A stretch of DNA of 33,525 nucleotides from NCBI GenBank assembly GCA_937930655.1, contig CALHBU010000009.1, positions 1 through 33,525 of the forward strand, given 5' to 3'. Numbering within the stretch: the stretch's first letter is position 1; the number at the start of each line of letters is the position of its first letter. The position numbers and the translations under genes are program-made. Source of the DNA: an uncultured Acidimicrobiales bacterium (GTDB lineage: Bacteria; Actinomycetota; Acidimicrobiia; Acidimicrobiales; SZUA-35). The notes beneath the pieces are model-generated. The model saw only the letters and a list, made by a program, of their open reading frames with translations, was not told the origin of the DNA and did no database searches. Shown in pieces: positions 3,600-9,817 of this stretch.

Positions 3600-5129
3600 A
3601 TGATCGACCCTGATCTCACTGCGGTCCTCCCCCGTCGCGGCATGGCCTTCGCCATTGACTTCGGCCTGATCAGCCTCCTCACCGCTCTCGTCGCCCGAAG
3701 CCAGTTCGAGGGCTTTCCCGTGGACCCCCAGGCCTGGACCCCCGAGGAGTTCGATCGCCTGGTGACGCTGAAGGACGACCGGTTCCACAGGATGCAGGAG
3801 ATCGGCGACACCCAGCACGTCATCAGCGGCGCCGGCCTGCTGATTACCCTCGCCGTTGGACTGGTGTTTTTCACCATCTTGTTTGTCCTCCTGCCAGCGA
3901 TCACCGGTTGGAGCCCAGGAAAGAAGCTTCTCGGCATTCGTGTTGCTGGCATCGACGGCTCGACACCGAGCCTCGGTCAGCTCATCACTCGATCGGTGGC
4001 CTTGGTGGTGGACCTGCTGCCGTTTGTCATTCCCGGCCTCTTGGGCCTGATCCAGGCAGTCCCGTCAAAACACCATCAACGGTTTGGCGATCGTGTGGCC
4101 GGAACCGTCGTGGCCGACGCCGCACAGCTTACGGCTCGGGCAGCCATCAACCTTGATGTGGACGAGCGGCTTCGCACCGGCGAGCAGTCGGCACCCTCGA
4201 CTGGGAAGCCTGCGCCCGAGGACTCCACGACTCAGGACTCCACGACTCAGGACTCGGCTGCGGCCGAACCAGCCTTGCCAATAGCACCCGGCAGCTCCAC
4301 CCCCGGCCAAGCCCCTCCGCCACCAGACCACAAGAAAATCGACGCCTCCGAATTTCTCGATCCGCAGCCTGTCGATCCCGAATCCCTTAAGCGGAACCCG
4401 GCTCTCGCGGGGCCGCCCTCGGCCGACGACCTGGTTGAAGCCACCAACAATCCGGCCCCGTCGGTGGAACCGATGCTGTTCGACGAGCCACTGGCCGGGG
4501 AGTCGTTGGCCCTTGAAGATGTCGGACTCAACCAACCAAAGGCTGCCAAAGCTCCCATAGAACCCCCCGCTTCACTGGCCGGGCCACCGAGCGCCAGCAG
4601 CGAGGTGCCGTCGGGCAATCCCGATGATCGAAACATCGACTTTGCCCTCGACCCTGAACCGACCAACCCGCCGACACCGGTAACCCCTGCGATAAAAGAG
4701 TCGGAACTTTCCCGGGACGAAGACCAACTCCCGGACAGGGACTCCATGTTCTCGGCATCGTCCAAGCCGAACCCCGAAGTCCAGACATCCAAAGTTGCCC
4801 ATCCCCCGCCCGCCCACCGCAGGGAACAGCCACGGCCCGACGATGCCACCAAGCCTGCCGCTGCCGCTCAGTGGGATCGCCCGAAAGCCGAGCCAGCTCC
4901 GGTCTGGCGGCCCGAAGGTGACGGTGTCGAACCGGCGTCCACGAAACCAGCGGGTCAACCCGCGCACCGCGATACTCAACCAGCACAATCCACCGCAGCT
5001 GCGTCCAGCAGCGAACCCGTCGACCCGGTGTGGAGCGACGACTGGCAAGCCTGGCTTTATTGGGATGCCAAGCGAAAGCGATGGCTACGTCACGATGTCG
5101 ACAACAACAAGTGGATCTCCATCAGCTGA
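3600..5129 (+). CDS. RDD-family membrane protein with long disordered tail and Trp-rich C-terminus
   Basis: 509 aa. Residues 1-175 form an RDD domain: Arg12-Arg13 with Asp20 in the first helix, membrane segments near 16-34, 76-102 and 131-152, GWSPGKKLLGIRV at 103-115 and RFGDRVAGTVV at 161-171. RDD proteins are polytopic membrane proteins of mostly unknown function, some linked to ion transport. Residues about 180-470 are Pro/Ala/Ser/Glu-rich and probably disordered, with a tandem DSTTQ repeat. The last 36 residues contain six tryptophans (478, 482, 485, 488, 495, 505) mixed with Lys/Arg, resembling the short WW-like or DUF2510-like caps of actinobacterial membrane proteins. Divergent from glyS; no clear Shine-Dalgarno precedes the ATG, so it may be leaderless. 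RDD identity is firm, function unknown. Confidence 0.85.
   Translation: MIDPDLTAVLPRRGMAFAIDFGLISLLTALVARSQFEGFPVDPQAWTPEEFDRLVTLKDDRFHRMQEIGDTQHVISGAGLLITLAVGLVFFTILFVLLPAITGWSPGKKLLGIRVAGIDGSTPSLGQLITRSVALVVDLLPFVIPGLLGLIQAVPSKHHQRFGDRVAGTVVADAAQLTARAAINLDVDERLRTGEQSAPSTGKPAPEDSTTQDSTTQDSAAAEPALPIAPGSSTPGQAPPPPDHKKIDASEFLDPQPVDPESLKRNPALAGPPSADDLVEATNNPAPSVEPMLFDEPLAGESLALEDVGLNQPKAAKAPIEPPASLAGPPSASSEVPSGNPDDRNIDFALDPEPTNPPTPVTPAIKESELSRDEDQLPDRDSMFSASSKPNPEVQTSKVAHPPPAHRREQPRPDDATKPAAAAQWDRPKAEPAPVWRPEGDGVEPASTKPAGQPAHRDTQPAQSTAAASSSEPVDPVWSDDWQAWLYWDAKRKRWLRHDVDNNKWISIS
4221..4250 (+). repeat. 15-bp tandem repeat inside RDD gene
   Basis: Two exact copies of GACTCCACGACTCAG lie head to tail, followed by a partial third (GACTC). 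In frame they encode DSTTQ-DSTTQ-DS in the disordered linker. This looks like slippage-prone low-complexity coding sequence. Confidence 0.9.
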
Positions 5130-5185: not shown

Positions 5186-5911
5186 TCAGCTCTGGAGATG
5201 TTCGGCGAACACCGTCGACGATTTGAGTCGACGCTCGAGATGCTGCTCGATCATGCGGGAGGCCAGCCTCTCCATTTCGACGGCAATGGCGTCGGGGGTC
5301 GTGTCCAGTACTCGGCGCACCTGATTGCCAAAAACCAGTCTGAACGCTTCTCGGGTGGCCTCGGAAATCGGCTCACCACGTCGATCTGCCCGGCACAGCA
5401 CCCCACCCTCCGACAGATCGATAGACACGAGATCGTCTTCGGTTCCGCAGCGGACGCATGCATCGAGCAGCGGCTGCACTCCTTCCAAGACCAGAACTTT
5501 CGCCACAAAGGCCGGGACAACCAGCGGGTTACCCTCCCGGTCCAGTTCCGAGAGGGCGCCGGTGAGCACGTTGAAAAGCGCAGGATTGGCCTCGCCCTCA
5601 ATGGCCACCTGGTCGATGATCTCCAGAAGCACTGACGCTCGGCCAAACCGGTCAAGGTCGCTGCGGAGGTTGGAATAGACCGTTGCCGTTTCGGCCTGGG
5701 TCACGATGTCCAGGTTGCGTCCTTCGTACAGCTGAAGGTGCACCGTCGAGGCGGGTTCCAGCCGGGCGCCGAACTTGCTCTTTGTGCGCCGGACTCCCTT
5801 GGCTACAGCCCGAACCTTTCCTCGATTTCGGGTGTAGAGGACAACGATCCGATCGGCCTCCCCCAGTTTGTAGGTCCGCAAGACAACCGCGTCATCGCGG
5901 TAGAGACTCAC
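5186..5911 (-). CDS. recO: DNA repair protein RecO
   Basis: 241 aa, normal length. RecO binds ssDNA and SSB and, with RecR, loads RecA at gaps and in RecF-pathway recombination. The N-terminal OB fold carries VVLRTYKLGEADRIVVLYTR and GKVRAVAKGVRRTKSKFG (residues 9-48), the classic RecO signature, followed by the helical domain. A zinc-finger region holds Cys152-x2-Cys155 and Cys173, but the fourth expected cysteine (176) is Asp, so the site is incomplete. GTG start at 5911, six bases after the uppS stop, so translation is probably coupled to uppS. It converges with the RDD gene; the 56-bp gap holds only a 4-bp GCCG/CGGC hairpin at 5159-5169, too weak to call a terminator. Confidence 0.93.
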   Translation of the reverse strand: MSLYRDDAVVLRTYKLGEADRIVVLYTRNRGKVRAVAKGVRRTKSKFGARLEPASTVHLQLYEGRNLDIVTQAETATVYSNLRSDLDRFGRASVLLEIIDQVAIEGEANPALFNVLTGALSELDREGNPLVVPAFVAKVLVLEGVQPLLDACVRCGTEDDLVSIDLSEGGVLCRADRRGEPISEATREAFRLVFGNQVRRVLDTTPDAIAVEMERLASRMIEQHLERRLKSSTVFAEHLQS

Positions 5912-5917
5912 GGTGAG

Positions 5918-6631
5918 TTACTCACTGAGTCCGCCGAAACGCCGATCACGACGTTGATATTCGGCAACGGCGTCAGCCAGATGCTGTCGTCGGAAGTCGG
6001 GCCAAAAGGTGTCGAGGAAGACCAGTTCGGCATAGGCCGCCTGCCAGATAAGAAAGTTGGAGATCCGGTACTCGCCCGACGTTCGAACCCAGAGGTCGAC
6101 TTCAGGCATCTCCGGGTCGTACAGCCGTGCCTCGATGTTCTCTTCGGTCAGAGCGAGACCTTCGTCGGAAAGCTGCTGCACGGCGTCGACGAGTTCGGCT
6201 CGACCTCCGTAGTTGAAGGCAATGGTGAGCGTGAGCTTGGTGTTGTCCTTGGTCAGCTCGATGGTTTCATCCATTCGCCGCAACAAGCGCTTTGGTACCC
6301 GCCAGTCGCGCCGACCAACGAACCGCACTCGCACACCCAGTTCGTGTAGTTCGTCGCGACGACGAACCAGCAGTGACTCGTTGAATCCCATGAGGAACCG
6401 AACCTCATCGGTCGGGCGTCGCCAGTTCTCTGTTGAGAAGGCGTAGACCGTCAGCCAACCAACGCCCAGCCCCAGTGCTCCATGCACGGCGTCGAGAAGA
6501 GCCTCCTCGCCGGCAGCATGCCCGTCAGTGCGCTTCAGTCCACGTTCGGTTGCCCATCGGCCGTTGCCGTCCATGACGCAGGCAACATGCTCGGGAACTC
6601 GCTCGAGATCGATGCCGTCGAGATTCATCAC
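5918..6631 (-). CDS. uppS: Isoprenyl (undecaprenyl/decaprenyl) diphosphate synthase, cis type
   Basis: 237 aa cis-prenyltransferase that extends FPP/GGPP with isopentenyl diphosphate to make the polyprenyl carrier for cell-wall synthesis. Visible motifs: HVACVMDGNGRWA with catalytic Asp21, the TVYAFSTENWRRP segment at 61-73, IAFNYGGRAEL, and the C-terminal RTSGEYRISNFLIWQ (from Arg183) that binds IPP diphosphate. Chain length of the product cannot be read from the sequence. The first two codons are GTG (6631) and ATG (6628); no good ribosome site favours either. It lies 64 bp downstream of the Thr/Pro-rich membrane protein gene and six bases before recO, a uppS-recO pair conserved in Actinobacteria. 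Confidence 0.96.
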   Translation of the reverse strand: MMNLDGIDLERVPEHVACVMDGNGRWATERGLKRTDGHAAGEEALLDAVHGALGLGVGWLTVYAFSTENWRRPTDEVRFLMGFNESLLVRRRDELHELGVRVRFVGRRDWRVPKRLLRRMDETIELTKDNTKLTLTIAFNYGGRAELVDAVQQLSDEGLALTEENIEARLYDPEMPEVDLWVRTSGEYRISNFLIWQAAYAELVFLDTFWPDFRRQHLADAVAEYQRRDRRFGGLSE

Positions 6632-6695: not shown

Positions 6696-7841
6696 CTACT
6701 CGTCGGCGGCCGGAGCGGCCGAGGTCGCTGGCGCCGCGGTGGGAGCCGGTGTGGTCGCAGGAGCGGCGGTTGTGGCCGTCCATGTGGGCGGAGCGAAGGT
6801 GACTTCGGGTTCCGGCGCAGTTGTGGGAGCCGGTGTCGTGGGGGCCGCGGTAGCCGGAGCAGCTGTGGTGGCCGGACGCCGAGTGGTGGCAGGTCGGCGG
6901 GTGGTGGCAGGTCGGGTGGGGGCCGGAGCTGCGGTTGTCGGCACTGCAGTCGTTACCGATTCCTCGGTAGTCGACTGAGTTGCCGACGTTGTGCTGGCCC
7001 GAGCAGTGGTGCTCGGGGTGGCGGTCGTAGGTACAGGCGTTGTGGCGGTCGCCGAGGTCGGGGGCGAAACAGCAGTCGAAGGCACGATGTCGGTTGTCGG
7101 CTCATCGTCGCCATCAGTCGAAACAAGAAACGCTACGAACAAAGCGAACAACAGAGCCAGTAGCCCGACAAGGGCAAGACGACGGCGGCGGTTGTCAGGC
7201 TCCTCGTCGACTGGAACAAAGGGAACCGAGCGGGCGATGTTGGTGTCATCGGAGACTCTGGCCGTGGCAATAGCGCCACCGAAGAGTGCGGGGCGATCGG
7301 GATCGGGCTCAGGCTCGTCGTCGGCTACGGCCGGAAACAGCGCACCGCTGTTCTCGAGATCATCCTCAGGGGTCTGTGGGGCAGCCGGCCTCTTGGTGCT
7401 CGGACGAGGGGGGAAGACCCTGTCGGCACGATCCGCCGATGGTGCCTCGGCTTTTGCCCCTCCGGCTTTCGCCGACCGAGCCCTCCCGTTGGTGGCCGGT
7501 GTGGCGCATGTCTGCCCGTTGTTGGTCGATGGAACGAACAGGGGAACCTGATCGGCCTCGATGATGGTGATCTCGTCACGAACGTCAATGACCGGACCGA
7601 ACAGCGACTCGCCGTTCTGAAGTTCGACAGTTTTTTCCGAACCGGCCTTTTCTGAACCGGCCTTGTTTGAACGAGCAGCACGGAAGAGAGCCACGTTGTC
7701 GGTGGCCACTGCCTCATCGGGCAGGTCGGTGGCAGCTGGCTGATGAGGGGCCGATGTCGGTCCCAGCAGAAGGCGGGCAAGCGCTTCTGCTTCATCTTCG
7801 CCAAGTTGCTGATGCTCAGTCTTTGCGGAATCGTCGATCAC
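6696..7841 (-). CDS. Single-pass membrane protein with Thr/Pro/Ala-rich outer domain and repeated xLF motifs
   Basis: 381 aa from a GTG start; I do not recognise a family. Residues 1-217 are acidic, Pro/Ala-rich and probably disordered; 218-221 are four Arg; 222-240 is one hydrophobic membrane segment; 245-381 are almost only Thr, Pro, Ala and Ser, with a three-fold RPATTR repeat, like a mucin-type or glycosylated stalk. By the positive-inside rule the N-terminal part is cytoplasmic. That part repeats a short Leu-Phe motif: ALF at 51-53, SLFG at 79-82, QVPLFV at 98-103, ALFP at 167-170, ALFG at 185-188, and a weaker VPFV at 206-209. The outer part might anchor in the envelope or be O-mannosylated. 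Divergent from dinG with about 107 bp between starts; upstream of uppS-recO in the same direction. Coding is supported by the regular amino-acid bias and lack of interruptions. Confidence 0.75.
   Translation of the reverse strand: MIDDSAKTEHQQLGEDEAEALARLLLGPTSAPHQPAATDLPDEAVATDNVALFRAARSNKAGSEKAGSEKTVELQNGESLFGPVIDVRDEITIIEADQVPLFVPSTNNGQTCATPATNGRARSAKAGGAKAEAPSADRADRVFPPRPSTKRPAAPQTPEDDLENSGALFPAVADDEPEPDPDRPALFGGAIATARVSDDTNIARSVPFVPVDEEPDNRRRRLALVGLLALLFALFVAFLVSTDGDDEPTTDIVPSTAVSPPTSATATTPVPTTATPSTTARASTTSATQSTTEESVTTAVPTTAAPAPTRPATTRRPATTRRPATTAAPATAAPTTPAPTTAPEPEVTFAPPTWTATTAAPATTPAPTAAPATSAAPAADE
6865..6918 (-). repeat. 18-bp tandem repeat, three units, in Thr/Pro-rich gene
   Basis: Units at 6865-6882 (imperfect), 6883-6900 and 6901-6918 share GTGGTGGCAGGTCGG on the plus strand. 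On the coding strand each unit encodes six residues of the RPATTR type in the extracellular stalk. Confidence 0.85.
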
Positions 7842-7948: not shown

Positions 7949-9817
7949 ATGTCCAGCACGATCACCCAGTTGGGTAGGGTAACCCAGGCTCTTCCCAGCG
8001 GTGGAGAGCACCGTCCTGGTCAAGAAAAAATGGCGGAAGAAGTAGCGGTTGCACTGGAAACCGGCACTGCGGTGTTCATCGAAGCCGGCACCGGCACCGG
8101 CAAATCTCTGGCTTATCTGACCCCCATTATCGACGCCGGCAAGCGGGCCGTTGTGGCTACCGCCACCATCGCCCTTCAGGGACAACTCGTCGACAAAGAC
8201 ATTCCGCTGGTCGCGGCGGGACTGGACACCGCCGTCTCAGCCGCCATTCTCAAGGGTCGAAACAACTATCTGTGCAACCAGCGGATGCAGGAACTGGATC
8301 GGGCCAGCCGCACCGAGCAGTTGGATCTTCTTCGAGGATCGAGCCCCGATGACCACCTCGAGGGCATCAAAGAATGGGCTCAGACCACCCAGACTGGCGA
8401 CAAGGAGGAACTCGATCCCGCCCCACCCTCCGATGTGTGGCAAGCCATCAGCGTTGGCGCCGACGAATGCCCGGGCGCCAGTCGCTGTCCTTCGGGTGAG
8501 GGCTGCTTTTCGGAGCTGGCCCGAGCTTCAGCCAGGGAAGCCGACATCATCGTCACCAACCACCACTACTACGGGCTGAACGTGGCCTCTGATGGTGCTC
8601 TTCTACCCGAGCATGATCTCGTCGTTTTCGACGAGGCCCACCACCTGCCGGAAGTTCTCAGCTCAACATGCGGGACCGACCTCAGTGGCGGCCGGCTCCG
8701 CTCGCTGTCGCGACGTGTTCGTGGTGTATTGACCGACGACGAGTTGGGTCGTGGTCTCGATGTCTCGGCCATGGAGCTCGACAACCTGCTCCGAGACGAG
8801 GTCGGCAATCAAATCTCCAATGGCGCAGATCTCGTTGAGGTGCTGGTCACGGTGCGAGATCGATCCGACCAGGTTCTGGCTGGGCTTCGTAAGACCAATC
8901 CGAAAGAGGGCTCCGATGCCTCGGCCCGGGTTGAGCGAGCCACCCTGGCCGCGACCTCCCTCATCAACGACATCGACTCAGTCATCGAATCGGACGAGAG
9001 TGACGTGCTCTGGATTGACGGATCGGACAACAATCCGGTTCTTCGTCGGACCCCGCTCGATGTTGGCCAGATCCTCATAGATCAACTGTGGGACGAACGT
9101 GGAGCCGTACTCACCAGCGCCACACTCCCCCAGGCGCTGCCCTCCCAATTGGGGCTCCCCGACAACGAGGTCGAACGGGTCGGCTCGCCGTTCGACTACG
9201 AGAAGCTCGGGCTTCTCTACTGCGCAGCGCATCTTCCTGACCCCCGGCAAGCGGGGTCCCGGGATGTCGTTCACGCCGAAATGGCTCAGCTGATAACGGC
9301 AGCTGGCGGCCGAACGCTGGGGCTGTTCACCAGCTACCGGGCCATGCAGGAAGCCGCCGACTATCTCCAGGAAGACCTCGATACTCCGGTAATGGTTCAG
9401 GGCGAGGCTTCACGATCGGTCCTGATCGAGAAGTTCACGGCCAACCCTGAGAACACACTGCTGGCGACGCTGTCGTTCTGGCAGGGCGTCGACCTACCGG
9501 GCGACACCCTCACCCTCGTCACCATCGACCGACTCCCCTTTCCCCGCCCCGACGATCCAGTGCTCCAGGCTCGCCGACGGCTGGCCGGCCCCAGCGCGTT
9601 TCGCACCATCGACCTCCCGCGAGCCCAAATGCTCCTGGCCCAGGGGGCCGGTCGGCTCATTCGCCGGTCGGACGATCGGGGGGTGGTCGCGGTTCTCGAT
9701 GCCAGGCTGGCCAACAACAAGTCCTACCGATGGGACCTGATCTCAGTCCTTCCTCCGCTTCGCCGCACCAAGGACCTCGACGAAGTACTCGACTTCCTGG
9801 AAGAGCTCGACAGTTGA
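7949..9817 (+). CDS. dinG: DinG-family ATP-dependent DNA helicase (XPD-like, Fe-S)
   Basis: 622 aa superfamily 2 helicase, 5'-3' polarity in the family, acting on forked DNA, D-loops and R-loops. Walker A EAGTGTGKS is at 45-53 and the DEAH box VVFDEAHHLPE has DEAH at 228-231. Four cysteines placed for an Fe-S cluster are visible: Cys109 (NYLCNQR), Cys174, Cys180 and Cys186 (DECPGASRCPSGEGC). C-terminal motifs WQGVDLPGDTL and QGAGRLIRRSDDRGVV are the helicase motifs V/VI. The frame stays open upstream to 7667, but that would overlap the divergent gene; the ATG at 7949 has AGGA (7937-7940) eight bases ahead and starts the conserved part. No recognisable actinobacterial LexA box lies in the 107-bp upstream gap, so SOS control is not supported here. 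Confidence 0.93.
   Translation: MSSTITQLGRVTQALPSGGEHRPGQEKMAEEVAVALETGTAVFIEAGTGTGKSLAYLTPIIDAGKRAVVATATIALQGQLVDKDIPLVAAGLDTAVSAAILKGRNNYLCNQRMQELDRASRTEQLDLLRGSSPDDHLEGIKEWAQTTQTGDKEELDPAPPSDVWQAISVGADECPGASRCPSGEGCFSELARASAREADIIVTNHHYYGLNVASDGALLPEHDLVVFDEAHHLPEVLSSTCGTDLSGGRLRSLSRRVRGVLTDDELGRGLDVSAMELDNLLRDEVGNQISNGADLVEVLVTVRDRSDQVLAGLRKTNPKEGSDASARVERATLAATSLINDIDSVIESDESDVLWIDGSDNNPVLRRTPLDVGQILIDQLWDERGAVLTSATLPQALPSQLGLPDNEVERVGSPFDYEKLGLLYCAAHLPDPRQAGSRDVVHAEMAQLITAAGGRTLGLFTSYRAMQEAADYLQEDLDTPVMVQGEASRSVLIEKFTANPENTLLATLSFWQGVDLPGDTLTLVTIDRLPFPRPDDPVLQARRRLAGPSAFRTIDLPRAQMLLAQGAGRLIRRSDDRGVVAVLDARLANNKSYRWDLISVLPPLRRTKDLDEVLDFLEELDS
9799..9805 (+). promoter_or_regulatory. Ribosome binding site fixing the TTG start of the PlsY-like gene
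   Basis: GGAAGAG lies within the end of dinG, eight bases before TTG at 9814. That TTG overlaps the dinG stop as TTGA, so the downstream gene is most likely translationally coupled. This site argues against the in-frame ATG at 9730, which would overlap dinG by 88 bp. Confidence 0.65.

Follow-up and report, generated by a model that had tools for sequence, protein, structure and literature searches.

The membrane protein MapZ (LocZ) of the Streptococcaceae is the nearest known working model for the layout of the protein described here, the likeness that is shown being one of layout and not of homology. MapZ has a single membrane helix, a largely disordered N-terminal cytoplasmic domain and a C-terminal part outside the cell (PMC7055233). 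Its cytoplasmic domain is largely disordered, contains amphipathic helices and binds FtsZ through a conserved N-terminal stretch (PMC7055233). The same single-pass layout is found in the present protein, which has one membrane helix, a disordered model and, as judged from an Arg-rich stretch, an N-terminal part that should lie in the cytoplasm. A predicted N-terminal helix is a further likeness to the amphipathic helices and the conserved stretch reported for MapZ. The protein differs from MapZ in lacking a folded extracellular domain, in place of which it has only a Thr/Pro/Ala stalk without a Pfam family. It also differs in its LF and FVP motifs, and its sequence matches neither solved structures nor Pfam.

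We tentatively propose, with somewhat less than even confidence, that the gene encodes a lineage-specific single-pass membrane protein with its tail inside and its stalk outside the cell, which acts as a tether or hub. On either side of its single membrane helix the family has motifs that can be counted and have statistical support. They provide two clear bait sequences and turn the search for partners within and beyond the cell into an ordinary experiment. To our knowledge, bacterial short linear motifs are little catalogued, and the division and envelope biology of this lineage is largely unstudied.

The gene, its product and its orthologues

The window, which is the whole stretch of 33,525 nucleotides analysed here, corresponds to contig 9 of an assembly that is still incomplete (81% complete, 464 contigs) and comes from an uncultured member of the Acidimicrobiales. 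The gene is located at 6696..7841 on the minus strand and starts with a GTG codon. The open reading frame and its orthologues define a product of 381 amino acids, composed of a disordered tail, a membrane helix and a Thr/Pro stalk. This architecture agrees with the original prediction of a disordered acidic tail followed by a single membrane helix and a Thr/Pro stalk. Acidic residues moderately outnumber basic ones in the tail (39 Asp and Glu against 24 Lys and Arg), which is predicted to be disordered. The AlphaFold model has a mean pLDDT of 56.9 and only two helices, the tail being disordered apart from helix 15-26; a model with such low values agrees with disorder but is weak proof of it. 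The membrane helix has its core at residues 222-240 (7122..7178, minus strand) by hydropathy and spans residues 215-241 in the model. The Arg-rich stretch preceding it suggests that the tail faces the cytoplasm and the Thr/Pro/Ala stalk (residues 243-381; 6699..7115, minus strand) the outside. Searches with the window protein gave no Pfam family at E<=0.01 and no match in the genome contigs, the plasmid search or the solved-structure sequence search, and the best NCBIfam hit, GspB, reached 15.4 bits against a cut-off of 100. Six orthologues likewise matched no Pfam family at E<=0.1. None of the top-ranked literature results describes this dinG-adjacent tail/stalk family.

The divergent neighbour of the gene, at 7949..9817 on the plus strand, encodes a dinG-like helicase according to Pfam. 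Downstream on the minus strand, and thus in the orientation of the gene, follow uppS (5918..6631; Pfam and gene order in relatives) and recO (5186-5911; Pfam). A functional link to dinG had been suggested originally, but since dinG is divergently oriented, the adjacency is weak evidence. Of the 31 loci in which uppS was readable, 27 have it next and co-oriented with the gene, which would suit an envelope role. In the four readable loci of genus g19 (L127, L128, L129 and L132) the uppS-recO block has the opposite orientation to that in the other genera, and the order of uppS is therefore given no weight.

A search with dinG gave as the 15 closest named relatives (L025-L039) metagenome-assembled genomes of Acidimicrobiales or Acidimicrobiia, two of them labelled Actinomycetes. 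Orthologues were found by locating dinG in the 39 genomes of the family and reading the DNA upstream of it. A divergent open reading frame of this kind lies beside dinG in 35 of them, the window included. In 34 of these the product has a single membrane helix with a Thr/Pro/Ser/Ala stalk; in the exception, G003, the contig end cuts the frame before the membrane helix. The gene is absent from G006 and G033, where uppS adjoins dinG, and from G008, where dinG lies in a different setting, while in G038, the fourth genome without a counted orthologue, dinG is cut. A profile search of these four genomes gave no convincing match (G033 at E 0.19, judged to be chance). The gene is thus dispensable at least in G006, G033 and G008.

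Seven dinG-bearing relatives from the order but outside the family had the gene in none of the available flanks, that of L021 being too short for a judgement. Profile A1, built from 15 of the 35 orthologues, which weak or very diverged relatives elsewhere could escape, was run against 99 genomes of the order, three of them from the family and 96 from outside it. It matched only G000 and G005, apart from three marginal matches that were judged to be chance on reading. Because the profile matches are confined to the family and the flanks of outside relatives lack the gene, it appears to be limited to one family of the Acidimicrobiia. The start [V/L/M]IDD recurs across several genera, and substitutions are concentrated at codon position 3 in all eight pairs compared. 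Together with the 35 syntenic orthologues, this indicates that the frame is coding.

Short motifs of the tail

The motifs listed originally were all confirmed at their residues: ALF 51-53 (7683..7691), SLFG 79-82 within SLFGPVID 79-86 (7584..7607), QVPLF 98-102 within QVPLFVP 98-104 (7530..7550), ALFP 167-170 (7332..7343), ALFG 185-188 (7278..7289) and VPF 206-208 within the juxtamembrane VPFVP 206-210 (7212..7226), all on the minus strand. VFP 142-144 (7410..7418, minus strand) is of the same kind and was missing from that list. The spacing, which had been called regular, is irregular, as its given range of 20-65 residues already implies.

The 220-residue tail contains five LF pairs against 0.42 expected, a number reached in 0 of 1000 residue shuffles. 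The other disordered-like segments of the genome, with those of this protein left out, contain four against 3.2 expected. This background was sampled from 40 other contigs and the window (324 kb, 299 predicted proteins) and comprised, with the protein's own segments, 64 disordered-like segments, each 50 residues or longer (4849 aa); its genes were called by a crude choice of open reading frames, some surely in wrong frames. Since the background is near expectation, the LF excess is a feature of this protein and not of the genome's disordered segments. Over the 35 tails, LF occurs 60 times against 15.6 expected (highest of 1000 shuffles, 29), a mean of 1.7 per tail. SLF occurs 16 times against 1.5, [LIV]F[GAPSD] 73 times against 18.7 and FVP 15 times against 1.7. 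The shuffles count related tails as independent, and the true weight of these statistics is therefore less than the raw counts, the gene being carried by ten genera.

Across the orthologues the motif has the consensus S/G-[L/I/V]-F-G/P. SLFGPV is kept in four of four orthologues of the window's genus, g1. In g7, GLF[GD] and, before the helix, IF[GA] stand at corresponding places in five of five, with GLFG in four of them. In g1, g7, g9 and g5, though not in g19 as a whole, Phe ranks with the most conserved residues of the tail. The number and position of LF vary between orthologues, and the tails of g5, g19, g4 and several g10 members lack it; g19 keeps a single SVFGxPEP in five of five instead. 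A search of the 39 genomes for LFGPVxD gave 12 matches and no convincing one in another protein: four are the g1 orthologues, and the remaining eight were judged to be chance after translation.

The tail might be a fast-evolving spacer of a surface protein that works outside the cell, carrying docking remnants of little importance. Its low identity (37-44% between g1 members) and the variable LF counts are consistent with this, as is the use of the same kind of stalk by other envelope proteins. The LF excess and the third-position pattern of substitutions nevertheless show that selection acts on the protein sequence of the tail, and we regard the spacer explanation as rather unlikely.

Proteins of the FG-repeat nucleoporin type carry many FG repeats in one disordered region. 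By analogy, the Phe motifs could be mutual stickers through which neighbouring tails cluster under the membrane without a folded partner. Spaced [LIV]F(G/P) motifs in a disordered tail would suit such a role, and so would the GLFG of g7 and the excess of FG (40 over the 35 tails against 17.8 expected). This excess, however, amounts to about one FG per tail, which together with the low mean of LF falls short of a repeat protein, and pure stickers would not need motif places that recur within genera. Clustering of this kind is quite improbable.

The tether reading includes the multivalent docking proposed originally, which the LF excess and the conservation of Phe in several genera fit. Conservation in the tail is not confined to the LF motifs: two other elements are conserved at least as steadily in many members, and several genera lack LF. 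The pattern originally named as a refutation, in which LF positions vary freely while other tail residues are kept, was found in part between genera and not within g1 or g7. The first of the two elements is the predicted N-terminal helix (residues 15-26, DEAEALARLLL; 7764..7799, minus strand). A profile of it was trained on g1 and g7, omitting row G001, whose anchor lies too near the end. Of the 27 held-out tails it matched 10 at P<0.01, in one case (G039) at another place in the tail. Judged by place, 13 of the 27 match within their first 30 residues at P<=0.016. The profile found no match in g2, g4, g9 and several other tails. The second element is an FVP in the 25 residues that precede the membrane helix, present in 12 of 34 orthologues against 0.15 by chance.

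The helix, LF and FVP segments could instead serve chiefly as reversible contacts that keep the tail against the cytoplasmic side of the membrane, without a protein partner. Segments such as an amphipathic helix or short hydrophobic pairs are of a lipid-binding kind, and the cytoplasmic helices of MapZ are reported to bind liposomes (PMC7055233). Against this, the S/G before and the G/P after the motif and the invariant SLFGPV of g1 exceed what hydrophobicity needs, and the helix, DEAExLAxLL, is acidic. On balance we consider membrane contact unlikely as the main function.

QVPLF had been compared with the sliding-clamp binding consensus, given as QLxLF (PMC4549789). Recruitment of the replication clamp, linked to the neighbouring dinG, would follow from this resemblance. 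The Gln is not conserved: QxxLF occurs at 2 of 60 LF sites, where about 1.5 are predicted from a Gln frequency of 2.5%, and the other three g1 orthologues lack QVPLF at that place. The protein also differs from clamp-binding proteins in being membrane-anchored. In sequence, QVPLFVP of the window protein resembles its juxtamembrane VPFVP more than a clamp motif. A Gln in any of the three positions ahead of [LM]F is present in 3 of 35 tails. With the Gln of QxxLF at chance level, the clamp motif was rejected, and such recruitment is extremely unlikely.

The stalk and a possible tether

The stalk of the window protein has its sole aromatic residues in a distal VTFAPPTW (6780..6803, minus strand), and in the orthologue stalks aromatic residues are scarce outside the tip region. 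A TFxxPTW-type tip is present in 10 of 34 stalks (g1, g3, g8 and g19), and PT[WF] or ATW in 17 of 34. The tip motif is missing from most g10 stalks and from both g2 stalks. Searching the 39 genomes for F[AS]PPTW gave 27 matches, against 8 for a reversed control. Six of them are orthologues and four belong to a second stalk protein. The remaining 17 comprise three in AAA-type ATPases (by sequence reading), one in another long open reading frame and others that look like chance frames. Judged by its sequence, the TFxxPTW tip is common to the protein and an unrelated stalk protein.

The conserved motifs inside and the one conserved stalk-tip motif outside suggest that the protein probably ties something cytoplasmic to the cell surface. 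We propose that the N-terminal amphipathic helix, the variable S/G-[LIV]-F-G/P motifs and the juxtamembrane FVP probably serve as docking sites for a cytosolic partner or a small number of them, for which several weak motifs would build up affinity by avidity. On the other side, the Thr/Pro stalk would bring the TFxxPTW tip into the cell wall or across it, and there the tip may bind an envelope component. The cytosolic partner would thereby be tethered to the envelope, possibly with a role in placing machinery there. The hub reading is supported by the motif excess over shuffles, which other disordered-like segments of the genome lack, the recurrent motif places in g1 and g7, the conservation of Phe, the N-terminal helix and FVP, the disordered model, the tip on the second stalk protein, the retention of the gene beside dinG in 35 of 39 genomes and the precedent of MapZ. 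The absence of LF, the N-terminal helix and the tip, each from some genera, the dispensability of the gene in some genomes and the lack of a convincing LFGPVxD match in other proteins of the 39 genomes count against it.

The presence of the stalk-tip motif in at least two proteins hints at a putative wall receptor. A bolder version, which is rather doubtful, would be an envelope-organising system of this one family's own. A cytoplasmic SLFG/FVP docking code would gather a partner beneath the membrane, and the TFxxPTW tip, common to unrelated stalk proteins and faintly to a kinase, would anchor all of them to one receptor in the outer wall.

Other proteins with similar stalks or motifs

Similar Thr/Pro stalks are carried by four other proteins of the window's own genome, none of which shows the dense LF tail. 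One of them has a catalytic domain, one a kinase domain and one an LPRTG segment, while the tail of the fourth is short. The second stalk protein (L253:1387-2019, minus strand) has a short tail, a membrane helix, a Thr/Pro stalk and the same TFAPPTW, without LF. It was also found in g19 (L250, L251 and L238), and it is convergent with an adjoining conserved protein that has no Pfam family. L002:1384-2505 (plus strand) encodes an Rpf-like transglycosylase (PF06737) with a similar stalk and a cytoplasmic tail. In L004:1327-1884 (minus strand) the stalk is followed by LPRTG and a membrane helix, and the product is a possible sortase substrate. L148:607-2412 (minus strand) encodes a Ser/Thr kinase with QPALFQ...IAFVRAEP...WRRR before the membrane helix and a Thr/Pro stalk ending in CPTWKPDCP.

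The tail could also serve docking or regulation in connection with Ser/Thr kinases; a kinase of this genome shows a comparable LF...AFV...RRR-membrane-stalk layout. The G000:C54 kinase is the genome's second best profile match (E 0.003) and also matches by eye, and a kinase of G004 has RLFHDPVPPPFVPVD. However, 20 kinase linkers, taken from 30 loci read (the others were duplicates, lacked a clear membrane helix or had insufficient length), contain LF 7 times against 3.05 expected (P 0.03) and FVP once against 0.58. The C54 kinase moreover lacks a close counterpart (E<=1e-60) in 19 of the 39 family genomes, among them the three further members of its genus. The kinase relation is a lead only, and as an explanation of the tail it is very unlikely.

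Motifs resembling those of the tail were also seen in two further proteins. At 3600-5129 (plus strand) the window encodes an RDD-family membrane protein (Pfam) with MLFDEP in a long disordered tail and a Trp-rich C-terminal end that by eye resembles DUF2510. L217:4356-5534 (minus strand) encodes a protein with DUF2510 and a membrane helix, the linker of which contains RIFGSSP and NSLFAKT.
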